In this document: positions 4,194-34,863 of the stretch, one piece after another
How positions within the stretch are numbered: the stretch's first letter is position 1
Layout of the letters: the number at the start of each line of letters is the position of its first letter
DNA from: a virus
Virus record (IMG/VR): IMGVR_UViG_3300033994_000248
Span: 1 to 34,863 of that record
Strand: one strand, 5' to 3'
Length of the DNA stretch: 34,863 nt
Program-made: the position numbers and the translations under genes
The notes under the pieces: generated by a model
Told to the model about the DNA's origin: nothing
The model's database searches: none
What the model saw: the letters and a program-made list of their open reading frames with translations, nothing else

Positions 4194-4694
4194 ATGCCCT
4201 GCGTATTAACTCAAGGATTTACGTTAGATTGCCGGGATAGTATCGGTGGCGTAAAAGCTGTGTGGTTTATCGCTCACGCTAATGTTACAGCAGTAACACA
4301 GGCTTCAGGAGTGGTAACTGCAATCACCGACACGTCTACATGGTACAAGTACAATTTGGTCAAGAATACTGCCAGCCTAACCGAGAATATCACAGGCACA
4401 GTAGAAAACGGGACTGTACAATATGCACCCGAACTGAATATTATCATTAACAAACTGCAAGCAAATACCCGTAACGAAATTTTGCTTCTTGCTCAAAATA
4501 CGCTTATGGCGATTGTGCAAGACCAAAACAATAAGTACTGGTTGCTCGGTTTGCAAAATGGTGTAGACCTTACCACAGGTTCAGCTGCCACAGGTGTTGC
4601 AGGCGGTGACCGTAATGGTTACAGCTTGACCTTCACAGGTACAGAACCTGCACTTGCTCCTGAAGTTCAGGCTTCAGTTGTTACAGGCTTGTAA
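4194..4694 (+). CDS. Structural protein, possible tail tube or head decoration protein
   Basis: 166 residues, mostly predicted beta-strand, rich in Thr, Val, Asn and Gly. It begins CVLTQGFTLDCRDSIGGVK and contains QANTRNEILLLAQNTLMAIVQD and a C-terminal GDRNGYSLTFTGTEPALAPE. I recall this family as a regular neighbour of the capsid gene in Bacteroidota phages, usually unnamed or called structural. The beta-rich make-up and the lack of another obvious tail tube gene make a tail tube protein plausible; a decoration protein is the main alternative. It sits between two terminators (4144 and 4717), so it is insulated like the capsid gene, as expected for an abundant virion protein. Confidence 0.5.
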   Translation: MPCVLTQGFTLDCRDSIGGVKAVWFIAHANVTAVTQASGVVTAITDTSTWYKYNLVKNTASLTENITGTVENGTVQYAPELNIIINKLQANTRNEILLLAQNTLMAIVQDQNNKYWLLGLQNGVDLTTGSAATGVAGGDRNGYSLTFTGTEPALAPEVQASVVTGL

Positions 4695-28136: not shown

Positions 28137-28517
28137 ATGGCAAAGCAGATAAAACAAGAACACGGGGGGAGTTTAACAAGACCCGAGAAGGGAGAAACGA
28201 TGAATCCAAACGGAAGACCGAGGAAGTACGTTAGCCTTCTGAAAGATGCAGGGTATAAATTATCCGAGATAAATGATACTATTCAGACGATGATGGCAAT
28301 GGATATACAGGAACTCAAAGGCGTTTATGAAAATCCACAGGCTACCATATTGGAAAAGACCATAGCAAGTGCGATGCGGAAAAGTTTAGAGAAAGGTAGC
28401 CTGTACTCATTGGAAACGCTTTTAACGAGGGTTTACGGGAAACCAAAGGAAACGGCAGAAGTAACCAATGATGGGAAGATAGAAGTGGTCTTTGTAAATG
28501 GCAAGACTATATTATGA
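28137..28517 (+). CDS. Small terminase subunit-like protein
   Basis: 126 residues directly upstream of the large terminase and overlapping it by 4 bases. A basic N-terminus (NPNGRPRKYVSLLKDAGYKL) probably contacts DNA; a helical core follows (QELKGVYENPQATILEKTIA, then GSLYSLETLLTRVYGKPKET), the pattern of Bacteroidota phage small terminases. The short beta tail (KIEVVFVNGKTI) could contact the portal or large subunit. It is expected to form a ring that recognises the packaging start. Confidence 0.65.
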   Translation: MAKQIKQEHGGSLTRPEKGETMNPNGRPRKYVSLLKDAGYKLSEINDTIQTMMAMDIQELKGVYENPQATILEKTIASAMRKSLEKGSLYSLETLLTRVYGKPKETAEVTNDGKIEVVFVNGKTIL

Positions 28518-29665
28518 GGATAGAACTGCCTGAACCACATATTAACCAGCTTCCTATCCTGCAATCACCTGCAAGGTTTAGGGTGGTTATGTGCGGCAGA
28601 AGGTTCGGTAAATCAGAACTATCACAAATCGAAATCATAACCGAATCGCTCAAAGGGCATCAGGTCGCATACATTACGCCAACGTATAACCTTGCAAAGA
28701 CTTTTTTCGATAAACTTGCAAAGGCTGTACCTTTCCCGGCAAACAGGTCAGAATTAACCATCAGCCTACCCACAAAGGGAAGCATTCAATTTTTTACAGG
28801 TGAGCGACTTGATAACCTACGGGGTAGAAAATTCCATTTAGTTGTAGTAGATGAGGCTTCTTTTATACCGAATCTTGAAGACGGCTGGCTAAATTCGATA
28901 AGACCAACCCTAACCGATTATATCGGTCGGGCTTTATTCTTGTCAACGCCAAAAGGGAAAAACTATTTTTATAGCCTATTCATGAAAGGAGGTGAGCAAG
29001 ACTGGGAGGCTTTCAGGTTTACTACTTACGATAACCCACACATAAACAAAACCGAGATAGACGATGCAAGGACACAGCTTCCCGAAGCGGTATTTGAACA
29101 AGAATACATGGCTAACCCGATGGAAAATGCGGCTAATCCTTTCGGTAGTGCTTTTATTCAGCAATGCACCTACCCGATTAGTACGGCATCCCCGGCAGTA
29201 TACGGAATAGACCTTGCCAAATCTACGGACTGGACAGTTATTATAGGCATGGATAGAATGGGTGCAGTCTGTTACTTTGACCGATTCCAAAACGATTGGC
29301 GCACCACAAAGCAGAAGATTAAGCTACTGCCGAAAGCACCCATCTTGATAGATTCGACAGGTGTAGGTGACCCGATAACTGAAGAATTGCAGCACGATGG
29401 TATGGAGGTAACAGGGTTTAAGTTCAGCCAAACGAGCAAGCAACAACTAATGGAAGGACTGCAAGCTGCTATTCATCAGCGGAAAATAACCTTCCCTTCC
29501 GGGATTATAACGCAGGAGTTAGAAATATTTGAATACCAATACTACAGCGGAGGCGTTAGGTATTCTGCACCTTCAGGCTTTCATGATGACTGCGTAATGG
29601 CTTTGGCTTTAGCAAATCAGCACGTTAATCAATATAGAAACAAAGGAAAATATTCATTTGCATGA
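28514..29665 (+). CDS. terL: Terminase large subunit
   Basis: 383 residues, short but complete. ATPase: Walker A GRRFGKSE (28-35), Walker B LVVVDEAS (109-116), coupling motif STPKG (144-148). RNase H-like nuclease: Asp233 (YGIDLAKSTDW), Asp280 (PILIDSTG) and Asp358/Asp359 (GFHDDCVMAL). It cuts concatemeric DNA and drives packaging through the portal at 5153. It overlaps the small subunit and the next gene by 4 bases each. The compact N-terminus suggests a small ATPase domain. Packaging type cannot be told from sequence; the circularly assembled contig is compatible with headful or with cohesive-end packaging. Confidence 0.9.
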   Translation: MRIELPEPHINQLPILQSPARFRVVMCGRRFGKSELSQIEIITESLKGHQVAYITPTYNLAKTFFDKLAKAVPFPANRSELTISLPTKGSIQFFTGERLDNLRGRKFHLVVVDEASFIPNLEDGWLNSIRPTLTDYIGRALFLSTPKGKNYFYSLFMKGGEQDWEAFRFTTYDNPHINKTEIDDARTQLPEAVFEQEYMANPMENAANPFGSAFIQQCTYPISTASPAVYGIDLAKSTDWTVIIGMDRMGAVCYFDRFQNDWRTTKQKIKLLPKAPILIDSTGVGDPITEELQHDGMEVTGFKFSQTSKQQLMEGLQAAIHQRKITFPSGIITQELEIFEYQYYSGGVRYSAPSGFHDDCVMALALANQHVNQYRNKGKYSFA

Positions 29666-30270
29666 AATGGAGTGATGTAACAGTAGGACAATATCAGCAG
29701 CTTGCCGAAATAGGTAAAATGGGGTTAAGCGATTTAGAAGCAACACAGGAAACGATTGCCATACTTTTTAAGCTAACAATTAATCAGGTGCGGCAACTAA
29801 AGCCAACAAAATTGGCAGCCTATGTGGAGCAGATAGGTTTTCTTAAAACGGAAATAATCCCAAGGCGCAGAACAATTCTTTATTGCAAGGGTTATTTCGC
29901 TGGGGTAGACTATACCTTTACCGATTTCCAAACCAGCAAGTACATTGAATCAAAATACTTCATGCAGGACTTTGTAGGCAATATGCATAACCTGTTGGCG
30001 GTATATACCCATGAGTTGAAATATGGGTTGATAAAAAAGAAAGCTAAAGTATCCGATTTTGAAAAGGATGCCGAAAGGTTAAAAGCTGCAAATATTGAAG
30101 AAGCAATGGGAGTGCTGGTTTTTTTTTATCCAACATTCGACAACTTGATGAAAATTATTCGACCTTATTCGGAATTGAGCAAGAAGACGGAGAAAGTGAG
30201 TCAACTGATAGAGAAGGCACTCACCCTTTCCTTGAACAATACGGATGGATATATCAGGCACACCTTGTAA
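29662..30270 (+). CDS. Tail assembly chaperone, zero-frame product (gpG-like)
   Basis: 202 residues, beginning KWSDVTVGQYQQLAEIGKMG, with a helical body. This is the pattern I associate with gpG-like tail assembly chaperones of Bacteroidota phages; they coat the tape measure protein while the tail tube assembles. The next open frame has no usable start of its own but continues in the -1 frame from a slippery run at 30119-30127. A 249-residue frameshift product is therefore likely, as with lambda gpG/gpGT. The gene lies upstream of the tape measure gene with three genes in between. Overlaps terL by 4 bases. Confidence 0.7.
   Translation: MKWSDVTVGQYQQLAEIGKMGLSDLEATQETIAILFKLTINQVRQLKPTKLAAYVEQIGFLKTEIIPRRRTILYCKGYFAGVDYTFTDFQTSKYIESKYFMQDFVGNMHNLLAVYTHELKYGLIKKKAKVSDFEKDAERLKAANIEEAMGVLVFFYPTFDNLMKIIRPYSELSKKTEKVSQLIEKALTLSLNNTDGYIRHTL
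30119..30127 (+). promoter_or_regulatory. Slippery sequence for programmed -1 frameshift
   Basis: Nine consecutive Ts read GTT TTT TTT TAT in the zero frame, so T-TTT-TTT (30120-30126) meets the X-XXY-YYZ rule. The -1 frame has its last upstream stop at 30096 and stays open to the TAG at 30408. GGGAG lies 7 bases upstream, a possible stimulator. No strong downstream hairpin was found by eye. Confidence 0.75.
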
Positions 30271-30410
30271 GCGAATTTGAACGGGTTTCTTTGGATGATG
30301 TATACAAGATGAGTGCTATACACTTCTTAAACGATTTGGCTTACCTAAAGGCTAAAAATGCCCATGATGACTATTTAAATAAAAAAGCCCGTGGCGCAAA
30401 AATCTCTTAG
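30126..30410 (+). CDS. -1 frameshift extension of the tail assembly chaperone (gpT-like)
   Basis: 94 residues in the -1 frame from 30126 to the TAG at 30408-30410, fused to the first 155 residues of the 29662 product for a total of about 249. The extension is acidic at first (IEQEDGESESTDREG), then well composed (HPFLEQYGWIYQAHLVSEFE; LNDLAYLKAKNAHDDYLNKK). It has balanced amino-acid use and no stop over 103 codons of that frame, unlike shadow frames. In other phages the T domain binds tail tube subunits. It also fills the otherwise empty 120 bases before 30391. Confidence 0.7.
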   Translation, partial: LSNIRQLDENYSTLFGIEQEDGESESTDREGTHPFLEQYGWIYQAHLVSEFERVSLDDVYKMSAIHFLNDLAYLKAKNAHDDYLNKKARGAKIS

Positions 30411-31098
30411 GCAATTACAGCAGGAAGCACTTAACGAGGGCTTTCTTGATGACCTCGGCAATGACAAAACTAACTACGCAGATAAAAGAAAAGCACCTGT
30501 AACGGAGCAGCTACTTATTGAGGTAGTAGGTAACTTTCTCCTTCAGGTGCAGGAGAATCTAAACAAGGCAAATAAAGTAGATACAGGCACGCTTTCAGAA
30601 TCTGTTAGCGCAGGCGACTTGATTAGTAATAAAGGCGTTTATTCAATAGAAGCAGGCTACCCACTAAACAGCGAAGCTGCCAATTATGCACCTTTTGTTA
30701 ATCAAGGTGTTAAGGGTTTTTTATCCGGTGAGCCTTCTGATTCACCTTTCAGCTTTAAGTCAGCCCGACCAAAGTATGATGGGGTTATGGTGGATGCCAT
30801 GCTTCAATGGGTAAAGCGTAACGGCATAAGCAGCAGAAGCGAAGACCAACGAACTAATTTAAGCCAACTGCAAACAAGAAGGCAATCTGTCGGGAATGTT
30901 GATGTACAAAGACAAACTGCTTACCAAATAGCTACGGCAATAAAGAAACGAGGTCTACCCAAAACGGACTTTTTTACTTCCGCTGTACGTCAGTACTTTG
31001 GGGATGAGTTCGTGGCGGCTGTGGGTTCGGCTTTTCTTTCCGATGTACGGGTATACATAAAGCAGGCGAATCAGCTAATTAATAAAGAGAATCAGTAA
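30391..31098 (+). CDS. HK97-gp10-like tail/head completion protein
   Basis: 235 residues starting at GTG (30391); the in-frame stop just upstream leaves no ATG alternative. The core KVDTGTLSESVSAG, NYAPFVNQGVKGF and a C-terminal AYQIATAIKKRGLPKTDFFT correspond to the HK97-gp10 type of tail completion proteins. It overlaps the frameshift product by 20 bases. It should act at the head-tail joint or at tail completion. Between the two halves there is a basic, Gln/Arg-rich insert (about 150-172). Confidence 0.6.
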   Translation: MAQKSLRQLQQEALNEGFLDDLGNDKTNYADKRKAPVTEQLLIEVVGNFLLQVQENLNKANKVDTGTLSESVSAGDLISNKGVYSIEAGYPLNSEAANYAPFVNQGVKGFLSGEPSDSPFSFKSARPKYDGVMVDAMLQWVKRNGISSRSEDQRTNLSQLQTRRQSVGNVDVQRQTAYQIATAIKKRGLPKTDFFTSAVRQYFGDEFVAAVGSAFLSDVRVYIKQANQLINKENQ

Positions 31099-32282: not shown

Positions 32283-34324
32283 GAACCGAAATTTACATAG
32301 AAGACCAGCGGCTTGATTTAACGCAGGACATCAGCGCAGAACTAACCTACTCAATAGATGAGATACAAGACTTCGGAACTCGTAACACATCATTCAGTAA
32401 AACCATTATCCTTCCCGGTAATGCGAACAATAACAAAATATTCGGTCACGTTTTTGATTTCAACAGGTCAACACCTTACGACCCTGAAGAGCAGAACTAT
32501 GGCTATAATTTTAATCCTGCTGCGACTGCCCGGTGTGTTATTCTTATAGATAAGATTCAAGTCTTTAAAGGCGTTTTAAGGCTATTAGAAATCGTTATAG
32601 ACAATCAGCTAATAGAATACGAATGTGCGGTATTTGGGGAACTTGGCGGCTTTGTGTCAGCATTGGGTAACAATAGGTTGGAGAACCTTGATTTTTCATC
32701 TTACAATATTGCGTGGAACTTTACCAATATCCAAAACAGCTGGAATAATGTAACGGGTGGAGGTGTTTACTTTCCTTTGATTGATTACGGAGGTCTTTCC
32801 GGTAACAAGGTGGATTTTGACTTCAAAGCCTTCCGACCTGCTTTTTATGTTCGTGAGATACTGAACAAGATTATAACGGCTTCAGGTTATACATGGGATT
32901 TTCCTTTATTGTCTACGGCTTTATTTGATAGGCTGGTAATACCTAACAATCAGTTAAGGCTTAACAGCTTGACTACGCAGGTTTTTGATGCCGACTTTAC
33001 TATTGCAACATACAGCAACCCTACTTATATTCCTATGACTGTGGTAACGGCTGGTTCGTTTACGGGAACTAATCCTATAACCTACACAGCGACAGAACCA
33101 TTAAACCTTAATATAACTTGCCGACCGATTGGGCAGGTAAACACATTGACAAGCACACCGGGTACAGTTACTTTTAGGCTAAAGAAGAACGGAGCAGTCC
33201 TGCGTGAAGAAAGCCGCTTTGTGCCGACATCAAACTTTTATGTAAACTTCAACCTTGATGTTGCAGGCGTTAACGTGGTGCAGTCTGATATTATTTCTGT
33301 TGAGGTAAGTAGTAATATTGTTTCTTACCAGTCATTCGGTGGACAATTTACCCTTGATAGTTCTGTACCTGTTGAAGTACCGATAGCGTACAACGATGTA
33401 ATACAGATAAACGATTGTTTACCAAAGGGAATCTTCCAGCGTGACTTTTTTAGCAGTATTGTGAAGATGTTTAATCTTTATGTGGTAGAAGATAAGTTTG
33501 TAGACAAGAAGCTGGTAATAAAACCTTTTGTTGATTTTTACAGCTATACAGCTTCAGCACAATATGATTGGACTAATAAAATGGACAGGGCAAAGCCTAT
33601 AAGGTTAAAGCCCATGTCTGAAGTTAACGCAAGGTACTATCAGTTCGCATACAAAGCTGACAGCGATTATTACGGGGACAATTACAGGAAAAAGTACAAT
33701 CAGGGCTATGGTGATTTTATAGAAGATACGGAAAGCGAATTTGTGAAGGAGACGGAAAAGGTTGAAGTAATATTTGCAGGCACGGCACTTTACCAATATT
33801 TAGGTACTGATAAAATCTATTCCGCAATATATAAGCTATCCAATACAAAGCAAAGTGAAGACCCGATGGACAGCGTGATACGCATTTTGCAGGCGCAGAA
33901 GATAACTAACCGGGTAAGCTGGAATATGTTAAACGGAGGCACTACACTTGCAACTTATAATGATTACGGCTATGCTGGGCATTTGTTTTTTGATTCTGCA
34001 AGTTTTACAGCTACTAACCTAAACCCTACATCAGATATAAATTTCGGTGCGCCTGCTGAAATATATTTCAGGGTACAGCAGTACACTTCAGCTAACCTAT
34101 TTAATAGTTATTGGAGCGAATACATAGCAGAGATAACCGATAAGGATAGTAAGCTGTTGACGGCACAAATAAAGCTGAATGATGTAGATATATATAATCT
34201 TGATTTCGGGAAGTTGCTATATATAGACGGAAGCCTTTGGCGATTGAATCGGATTTTAGATTATAACCCGATAGCGATGCAGACAACTAAATGTGAATTT
34301 CTTAAAGTAATTGAATTAATATAA
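32279..34324 (+). CDS. Large tail-tip/baseplate-like structural protein
   Basis: 681 residues. The start MRTEIYIEDQRLDLTQDISA and the RNTSFSKTIILPGNANNNKI motif are typical of a virion protein family found beside tape measure genes in Bacteroidota phages, probably Tal- or baseplate-hub-like. The middle is Thr/Val/Ser-rich beta sequence; the end again resembles a hub domain (LYIDGSLWRLNRILDYNPIA). Its stop overlaps the tape measure start by one base (TAATG). It may host the receptor-proximal end of the tail. No lysozyme or peptidase motif is visible. Confidence 0.55.
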   Translation: MRTEIYIEDQRLDLTQDISAELTYSIDEIQDFGTRNTSFSKTIILPGNANNNKIFGHVFDFNRSTPYDPEEQNYGYNFNPAATARCVILIDKIQVFKGVLRLLEIVIDNQLIEYECAVFGELGGFVSALGNNRLENLDFSSYNIAWNFTNIQNSWNNVTGGGVYFPLIDYGGLSGNKVDFDFKAFRPAFYVREILNKIITASGYTWDFPLLSTALFDRLVIPNNQLRLNSLTTQVFDADFTIATYSNPTYIPMTVVTAGSFTGTNPITYTATEPLNLNITCRPIGQVNTLTSTPGTVTFRLKKNGAVLREESRFVPTSNFYVNFNLDVAGVNVVQSDIISVEVSSNIVSYQSFGGQFTLDSSVPVEVPIAYNDVIQINDCLPKGIFQRDFFSSIVKMFNLYVVEDKFVDKKLVIKPFVDFYSYTASAQYDWTNKMDRAKPIRLKPMSEVNARYYQFAYKADSDYYGDNYRKKYNQGYGDFIEDTESEFVKETEKVEVIFAGTALYQYLGTDKIYSAIYKLSNTKQSEDPMDSVIRILQAQKITNRVSWNMLNGGTTLATYNDYGYAGHLFFDSASFTATNLNPTSDINFGAPAEIYFRVQQYTSANLFNSYWSEYIAEITDKDSKLLTAQIKLNDVDIYNLDFGKLLYIDGSLWRLNRILDYNPIAMQTTKCEFLKVIELI

Positions 34325-34863
34325 TGGCGCAGCAAGAAGCAATAAACATAAAAGTAACCGTTGACAGCAAAGATGCGCAACAAGGGGTTGACAAGCTGCA
34401 AGAAGGTGTAAAGCAAACGGGTGATGCTGCAAAGAAAGCGGAAGCAGGTGCAAAGAAGGCGGCTGGTGCTTTTTCTACTATCGGCAACGCTTTAAAATCT
34501 TTAGGCATTATTTCGTTGGTTGTTCGTGGTTTTGAGTTCTTGCAGGAAGTGCTAATGAAGAATCAAAAGGTGGCTGATGCTTTTGCAGTTGCTGGTGAGT
34601 TCATCAGCAGGGTGCTTTCTGATTTGGTAGAGTTTGTGGTAAATAATTTCGGAAAGGTTGTTGACCTATTTACGAAGGTCTTTAACGACCCGATGAAATA
34701 TGTTAAGGAATTAGGCGAGGCGATAAAGAACAACCTAATCGAAAGGGTTAAAAGCCTAATAGATGCCTACGGGTTTTTGGGTGAGATTATTAAAAACGTA
34801 TTTACAGGTGAATTTGACAAGGCAGCAGAAGCGGCAAAGAACTTTGGTAAAGAGTTGGTGGAT
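34324..34863 (+). CDS. Tape measure protein, 5' part (continues at base 1)
   Basis: The first 180 codons of the gene whose remainder is at 1-1567; the last 127 bases duplicate the start of the window. It begins AQQEAINIKVTVDSKDAQQG, a start common in tape measure proteins, followed by a Lys/Ala-rich helical stretch and a hydrophobic segment (about 53-78, GNALKSLGIISLVVRGFEFL) that may later insert into the host membrane. The ATG overlaps the stop of the upstream tail gene (TAATG). Together the two parts encode about 659 residues. Confidence 0.9.
   Translation, partial: MAQQEAINIKVTVDSKDAQQGVDKLQEGVKQTGDAAKKAEAGAKKAAGAFSTIGNALKSLGIISLVVRGFEFLQEVLMKNQKVADAFAVAGEFISRVLSDLVEFVVNNFGKVVDLFTKVFNDPMKYVKELGEAIKNNLIERVKSLIDAYGFLGEIIKNVFTGEFDKAAEAAKNFGKELVD
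34737..34863. repeat. Terminal direct repeat, right copy
   Basis: Exact copy of bases 1-127, in the same reading frame of the tape measure gene. Removing one copy gives a circle of 34,736 bp. Confidence 0.95.

Follow-up and report, generated by a model that had tools for sequence, protein, structure and literature searches.

The window analyzed here is a stretch of 34,863 nucleotides that makes up the whole of the virus record IMGVR_UViG_3300033994_000248. It carries an exact direct terminal repeat of 127 bases (positions 1–127 equal 34737–34863), which marks the record as a complete genome, circular or terminally redundant. The tape measure gene, which matches tape-measure PHROGs, spans the record break (34324–34863, continuing at 2–1567). 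The gene under study adjoins terL, and three genes separate it from the tape measure gene. The features of the locus are the following:

28514–29665, plus strand: terL, the terminase large subunit gene (phrog_2, E 2.4e-46), directly upstream of the recoded gene.
29662–30270, plus strand: zero-frame ORF of 202 amino acids, the short (G-like) product, with residues 1–155 common to the long product.
30119–30127, plus strand: T9 homopolymer, the slip site, exactly nine T, with zero-frame codons GTT TTT TTT TAT.
30120–30126, plus strand: T-TTT-TTT heptamer in zero-frame register, which a ribosomal -1 shift, if any, would use.
30120–30410, plus strand: the -1 extension from slip site to TAG, adding 94 residues after the shared V-F-F.
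30127–30267, plus strand: doubly coded stretch, formed by the zero-frame tail of 47 codons and the -1 frame.
30222–30356, plus strand: conserved helical domain of the extension, HPFLEQYGWIYQAHLVSEFERVSLDDVYKMSAIHFLNDLAYLKAK, delimited from alignments.
30391–31098, plus strand: downstream gene with weak neck/tail-completion resemblance (phrog_5, E 0.049), a conserved neighbour.

The zero-frame ORF overlaps the end of terL, starting inside an ATGA, and an AlphaFold2 model of its product had a mean pLDDT of 82. The slip-site codons are codons 153–156 of the 202-codon ORF. The -1 frame is open for 103 codons (30099–30407) up to the TAG at 30408–30410, and a fusion of the two frames comprises 155 + 94 = 249 residues. 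A gap of 120 bases (30271–30390) lies between the zero-frame ORF and the downstream gene, and a GGGAG (30108–30112) precedes the T run. A first-pass annotation had described this arrangement as a programmed -1 ribosomal frameshift in a tail assembly chaperone; on rechecking the sequence, all of its coordinates (ORF, T9, heptamer register, -1 frame, gap, fusion and GGGAG) were reproduced.

That the -1 frame is coding, as the annotation had supposed, is borne out by its protein relatives, by low dN/dS and by the occurrence of the same fusion in single-frame relatives. Protein searches with the extension alone retrieved relatives at 38–97% identity. Among the eight closest relatives, the window included, dN/dS was 0.10 for the shared N part; for the -1 frame it was 0.22 where the frames overlap and 0.155 beyond the stop of the zero frame, values that indicate purifying selection, and for the zero frame in the overlap it was 0.99. 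Judged from these substitutions, the overlap in the window's clade is constrained in the -1 frame only. A clade of the type of Nonlabens phage P12024S shows a near-complete overlap of the two frames, with 25 of 252 overlap sites varying and dN/dS values of 0.25 (-1 frame), 0.62 (zero frame) and 2.6 (+1 frame). Apparent synonymous divergence there was 0.04–0.065 in the overlap versus 0.38 upstream, and in this clade change in the overlap is depressed by both frames.

The conservation of the slip site was followed across relatives. Two-frame loci were found in at least 311 locus records, including those of the cultured Nonlabens phages P12024S and P12024L, and these records form 67 clusters at 80% nucleotide identity; clusters give the fair count because certain contigs appear under two or more locus identifiers. 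Peptide-pattern searches covered the best 80 loci each, the larger group exceeding 570 confirmed relatives, and the window's own group contributed at least 87 two-frame loci. Proteins sharing the slip site fall to about 16% identity in a structural match. In all two-frame loci listed the direction of the shift is -1 and T-TTT-TTT stands in zero-frame register, as an in-frame X-XXY-YYZ slippery heptamer. An uninterrupted run of at least nine T is present in 67 of 67 clusters listed (T9 in 53, T10 in 13, T11 in one, none shorter), a conserved-length A/T run of the kind (at least 8–9) used to recognize transcriptional slippage. In 352 kb of neighbouring genes, an exact T9 occurred 65 times at the slip site and once elsewhere, at a doubtful ORF start, and its presence at the slip site is far beyond chance. 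All 20 clusters encoding V-F-F at this point do so with GTT TTT TTT, for which the chance is about 5e-17 given the genes' own codon usage and ignoring relatedness. The surroundings are also kept: of the 165 loci listed with enough flank, 149 have a terL relative upstream, and a relative of the downstream gene is present in 161 of 164 loci listed. Retention of the slip site by homologues, which the first-pass annotation had suggested as a check, was observed in every intact two-frame relative. The sole broken junction, with T5, a nearby deletion and both frames broken, is in a single contig (L060/L151, IMGVR_UViG_3300045125_000006), probably a misassembly or a decayed copy.

Since homopolymers are error-prone and single-frame relatives exist, the two frames could in principle reflect a sequencing or assembly error in a gene that is truly one continuous frame. 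This is extremely improbable, given that the same frame relation and at least nine T recur in the 67 clusters listed, from many assemblies and from cultured P12024S and P12024L, and that the overlap shows dual-coding constraint. A second explanation would treat the extension as a gene in its own right, having a separate start codon or being translated by re-initiation near the zero-frame stop. In its favour, TTG is the only candidate start before the conserved domain in 56 of the 115 distinct contexts listed, in some of them at the junction itself, and the end of the -1 ORF of P12024S is annotated as a separate gene of 55 amino acids. However, 54 of the 115 contexts contain no ATG, GTG or TTG before the domain, and an ATG or GTG is found in only five. 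No start codon is conserved, the in-register T run would have no explanation, and the fusion also occurs in single-frame relatives. The independent-start reading, which the first-pass annotation had named among the findings that would overturn its proposal, is already largely refuted, and we consider it very unlikely.

The single-frame relatives comprise 28 locus records (24 + 4) in which the N-domain and the extension are joined in one frame and no T run is present at the junction; a quick tree placed them in two groups. The helical domain of the extension is present in frame in these natural fusions. In a tree from a short search, with moderate supports, one single-frame clade (L043/L044/L050) falls within the two-frame relatives, and loss of the slip by fusion of the frames in some lineages is therefore the simplest reading of the phylogeny. 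A second copy of the N-domain was sought in six of the phages with single-frame fusions and each had one copy, in records that may be incomplete. The codon preceding TTT TTT in two-frame genes specifies V, L, I or F, with T as second base, except in one clade with AGT; the single-frame fusions mostly have S, T, R or M at that position, a comparison that is not statistically independent because only two clades are involved. These fusions raise the question of how such phages manage without the short form.

Combined, the coding character of the -1 frame, the single-frame fusions and the T runs of at least nine in all two-frame clusters listed make it nearly certain that programmed -1 recoding occurs and that the long product is used. 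Normal reading would yield the 202-residue protein; in a minority of readings, the run would gain one U, or a one-base step back would be made there, to give the 249-residue protein. The proposal of a programmed -1 ribosomal frameshift is thus upheld as regards programmed -1 recoding with a conserved 94-residue extension, the ribosome being one of two candidates for the slipping agent. We lean modestly towards slippage by RNA polymerase as the slipping step, in which some of the transcripts would have U10 in place of U9, or a different net +1 change. Polymerase slippage is preferred here over ribosomal frameshifting, and both could act together.

Codon register cannot separate polymerase from ribosome, because every T9 includes an in-frame T-TTT-TTT. 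The pattern of variation at the site favours a requirement for run length rather than for T-TTT-TTT alone. Runs shorter than nine are absent among the 67 clusters listed, though the heptamer would need no more than T7 or T8. Where TTC, TTG or TTA shortens the run at its 3' end, an ATT or GTT codon invariably stands before the run and brings it back to T10, and in the only clade with AGT before the run (L357–L359) the run is lengthened at its opposite end to T10. An uninterrupted run of nine or more T is a classic signal for RNA-polymerase slippage. E. coli RNA polymerase slips on T7 and T8 reporters by insertion or deletion (PMC6260861), and nine T's or A's cause efficient slippage in vivo (PMC5009743). 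Some observations weigh on the other side. The flanking T's can be explained in part by hydrophobic residues at those positions, and a need for hydrophobic residues in the short form could look like a run-length rule. A9 or A10 runs are tolerated in neighbouring genes, which counts against polymerase slippage, as does the fact that, to our knowledge, all experimentally studied G/GT frameshifts are ribosomal. Stops in the +1 frame and avoidance of T runs in other genes were uninformative on this point.

The competing mechanism, a programmed -1 ribosomal frameshift at T-TTT-TTT in which two tRNA-Phe slip back together, would generate the same two proteins and deserves serious consideration, though we do not expect it to be the answer. 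It accounts for the zero-frame register of the heptamer in all two-frame loci listed and for the observation that TTT within the heptamer is never swapped for TTC, and it is how lambda-type G/GT pairs are made (PMC5009743). It does not account as readily for the fact that only runs of nine or more T were found among the clusters listed, with T7, T8 and other slippery heptamers all absent; in the SEA-PHAGES set, by contrast, frameshift sites of tail chaperones use diverse motifs (PMC10885494). Moreover, E. coli ribosomes shift only weakly on U_UUU_UUU, far less than on A_AAA_AAG (PMC5009743), and an in-frame T-TTT-TTT within a run of eight is tolerated inside terL of two relatives (L140 and L143). 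No stimulator was found either: fold z-scores just after the run were about -0.1 (23 clusters), with no conserved downstream RNA structure, and no conserved Shine-Dalgarno-like motif was detected upstream. A role for the GGGAG, singled out in the first-pass annotation, was not supported, since this motif is confined to the window's own clade. Known cases of frameshifting do not all need a stimulator.

Two further homopolymer occurrences were recorded in these genomes. The run in terL of L140 and L143 reads GTT TTT TTT G, in frame, at about position 1026 in each, inside an essential gene. A9 runs in the same codon register lie inside the downstream gene of L026, L027, L050 and L059; they could be due to chance or constitute a second slip site.

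A link to cultured phages came first from a fold search, tblastn with the proteins of the window itself having given nothing useful among cultured phages. The query was a structure predicted for one of the natural fusions (mean pLDDT 88), and it matched the Nonlabens phage P12024S protein P12024S_38. Independently of fold, phrog_32199, the family of P12024S_38, is matched by five of the aligned sequences (best E 1.9e-4). This family, of unknown function, is the same as the one described here by fold, sequence, post-terL position and T9 -1 arrangement: in P12024S, the gene follows terL, the slip site reads CTT TTT TTT TAT and the -1 frame is open. The P12024S record annotates two unrelated hypothetical proteins and does not note the frame transition. 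The annotated 55-amino-acid genes P12024S_39 (L098, 23663–23830) and P12024L_41 (L257, 1528–1695) correspond to the 3' part of the -1 extension only. Recognition of the arrangement would also improve annotation, the -1 extension being missed or split in current records. Two scans of bacterial genomes gave no confirmed match, hence no host could be assigned in that way.

A weaker fold resemblance, through the protein R9VW65 of Flavobacterium phage 6H, was found to a gene of about 293–301 amino acids of the Duneviridae (phrog_25418; Flavobacterium phage 2A, Cellulophaga phage Ingeline). That gene differs in being one continuous ORF that has no slip run and precedes the tail genes, and homology is tentative. 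Phage 6H was considered as a second type of slip site (T-TTT-TTC) and rejected, its gene being a locally altered copy of the single-frame gene of phage 2A: relative to the 293-amino-acid gene of 2A (L180, 1501–2382), that of 6H (L099, 10352–10927) has a short divergent stretch and a 2-base length change near TTTTTTC. The interruption in 6H is either a natural lesion or a sequencing error.

The possession of two length forms with a common N-domain is the hallmark of G/GT-type tail assembly chaperones, and lambda-type chaperones are the textbook example of ribosomal frameshifting in phages. As in the lambda gpG/gpGT system (Levin 1993; Xu, Hendrix and Duda 2004, as cited in PMC5009743), a single gene of the phage structural region gives a short and a -1-extended product sharing a helical N-domain. 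No match to lambda G/GT was obtained in sequence or fold; the gene here comes straight after terL, whereas that of lambda immediately precedes the tape measure gene, and the slip site is an invariant poly-T of nine or more instead of a GGGAAAG-type heptamer. In this last respect the locus resembles the transcriptional slippage at T9/A9 of Shigella mxiE and Thermus dnaX, where an uninterrupted homopolymer of about nine or more gives two protein forms with no need for structure or a Shine-Dalgarno-like element (PMC5009743, PMC4256274, PMC3711429); it differs from these in being a phage structural gene, in which slippage is proposed from sequence.

With regard to function, the two length forms with a common N-domain, a tape-measure-like protein in the genome and the lack of any other such gene pair make it probable, by analogy, that the proteins work like G/GT, as putative members of that group. 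The short form would coat the tape measure in many copies, and a small number of long copies would recruit the tail tube protein. The name tail assembly chaperone and the lambda parallel given at first pass are good guesses by analogy, not backed by family or fold matches and with a different gene position. Searches of Pfam, PHROG and PDB gave nothing above chance that would tie the gene to a known chaperone family; the fold search gave no PDB match with E below 1, and in BFVD it matched uncharacterized phage proteins, with a named chaperone only at E 0.55. The gene has terL on one side and a neck-like gene on the other, with three genes between it and the tape measure gene; this location, together with the absence of a match to known chaperones, would also fit a recoded head-completion or packaging accessory. 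We regard this as less likely, because paired length forms with a shared N-domain typify G/GT chaperones and the structural genes of the window genome offer no other overlapping-frame candidate.

The arrangement is ordinary in its logic but unusual in the uniformity of its poly-T slip site, in where it lies and in the evidence of selection on run length. One slip site has been kept across a wide and mostly unannotated family of environmental phages, and the length of the homopolymer looks like what is kept. It is nearly as easy to believe as to doubt the full scenario, in which a large family of tailed phages would make a G/GT-like pair by polymerase slippage on a length-selected poly-T (9–11), some lineages having fused the frames. 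If true, phage tail assembly would depend on transcriptional infidelity, and any part played by polymerase is directly testable with existing isolates, the Nonlabens phages P12024S and P12024L. Elsewhere in the window, positions 4194–4694 encode a protein of 166 amino acids that matches phrog_19091 (unknown function, E 2.2e-26). Its gene follows the likely capsid gene, far from the tape measure gene, and may code for the tail tube protein.
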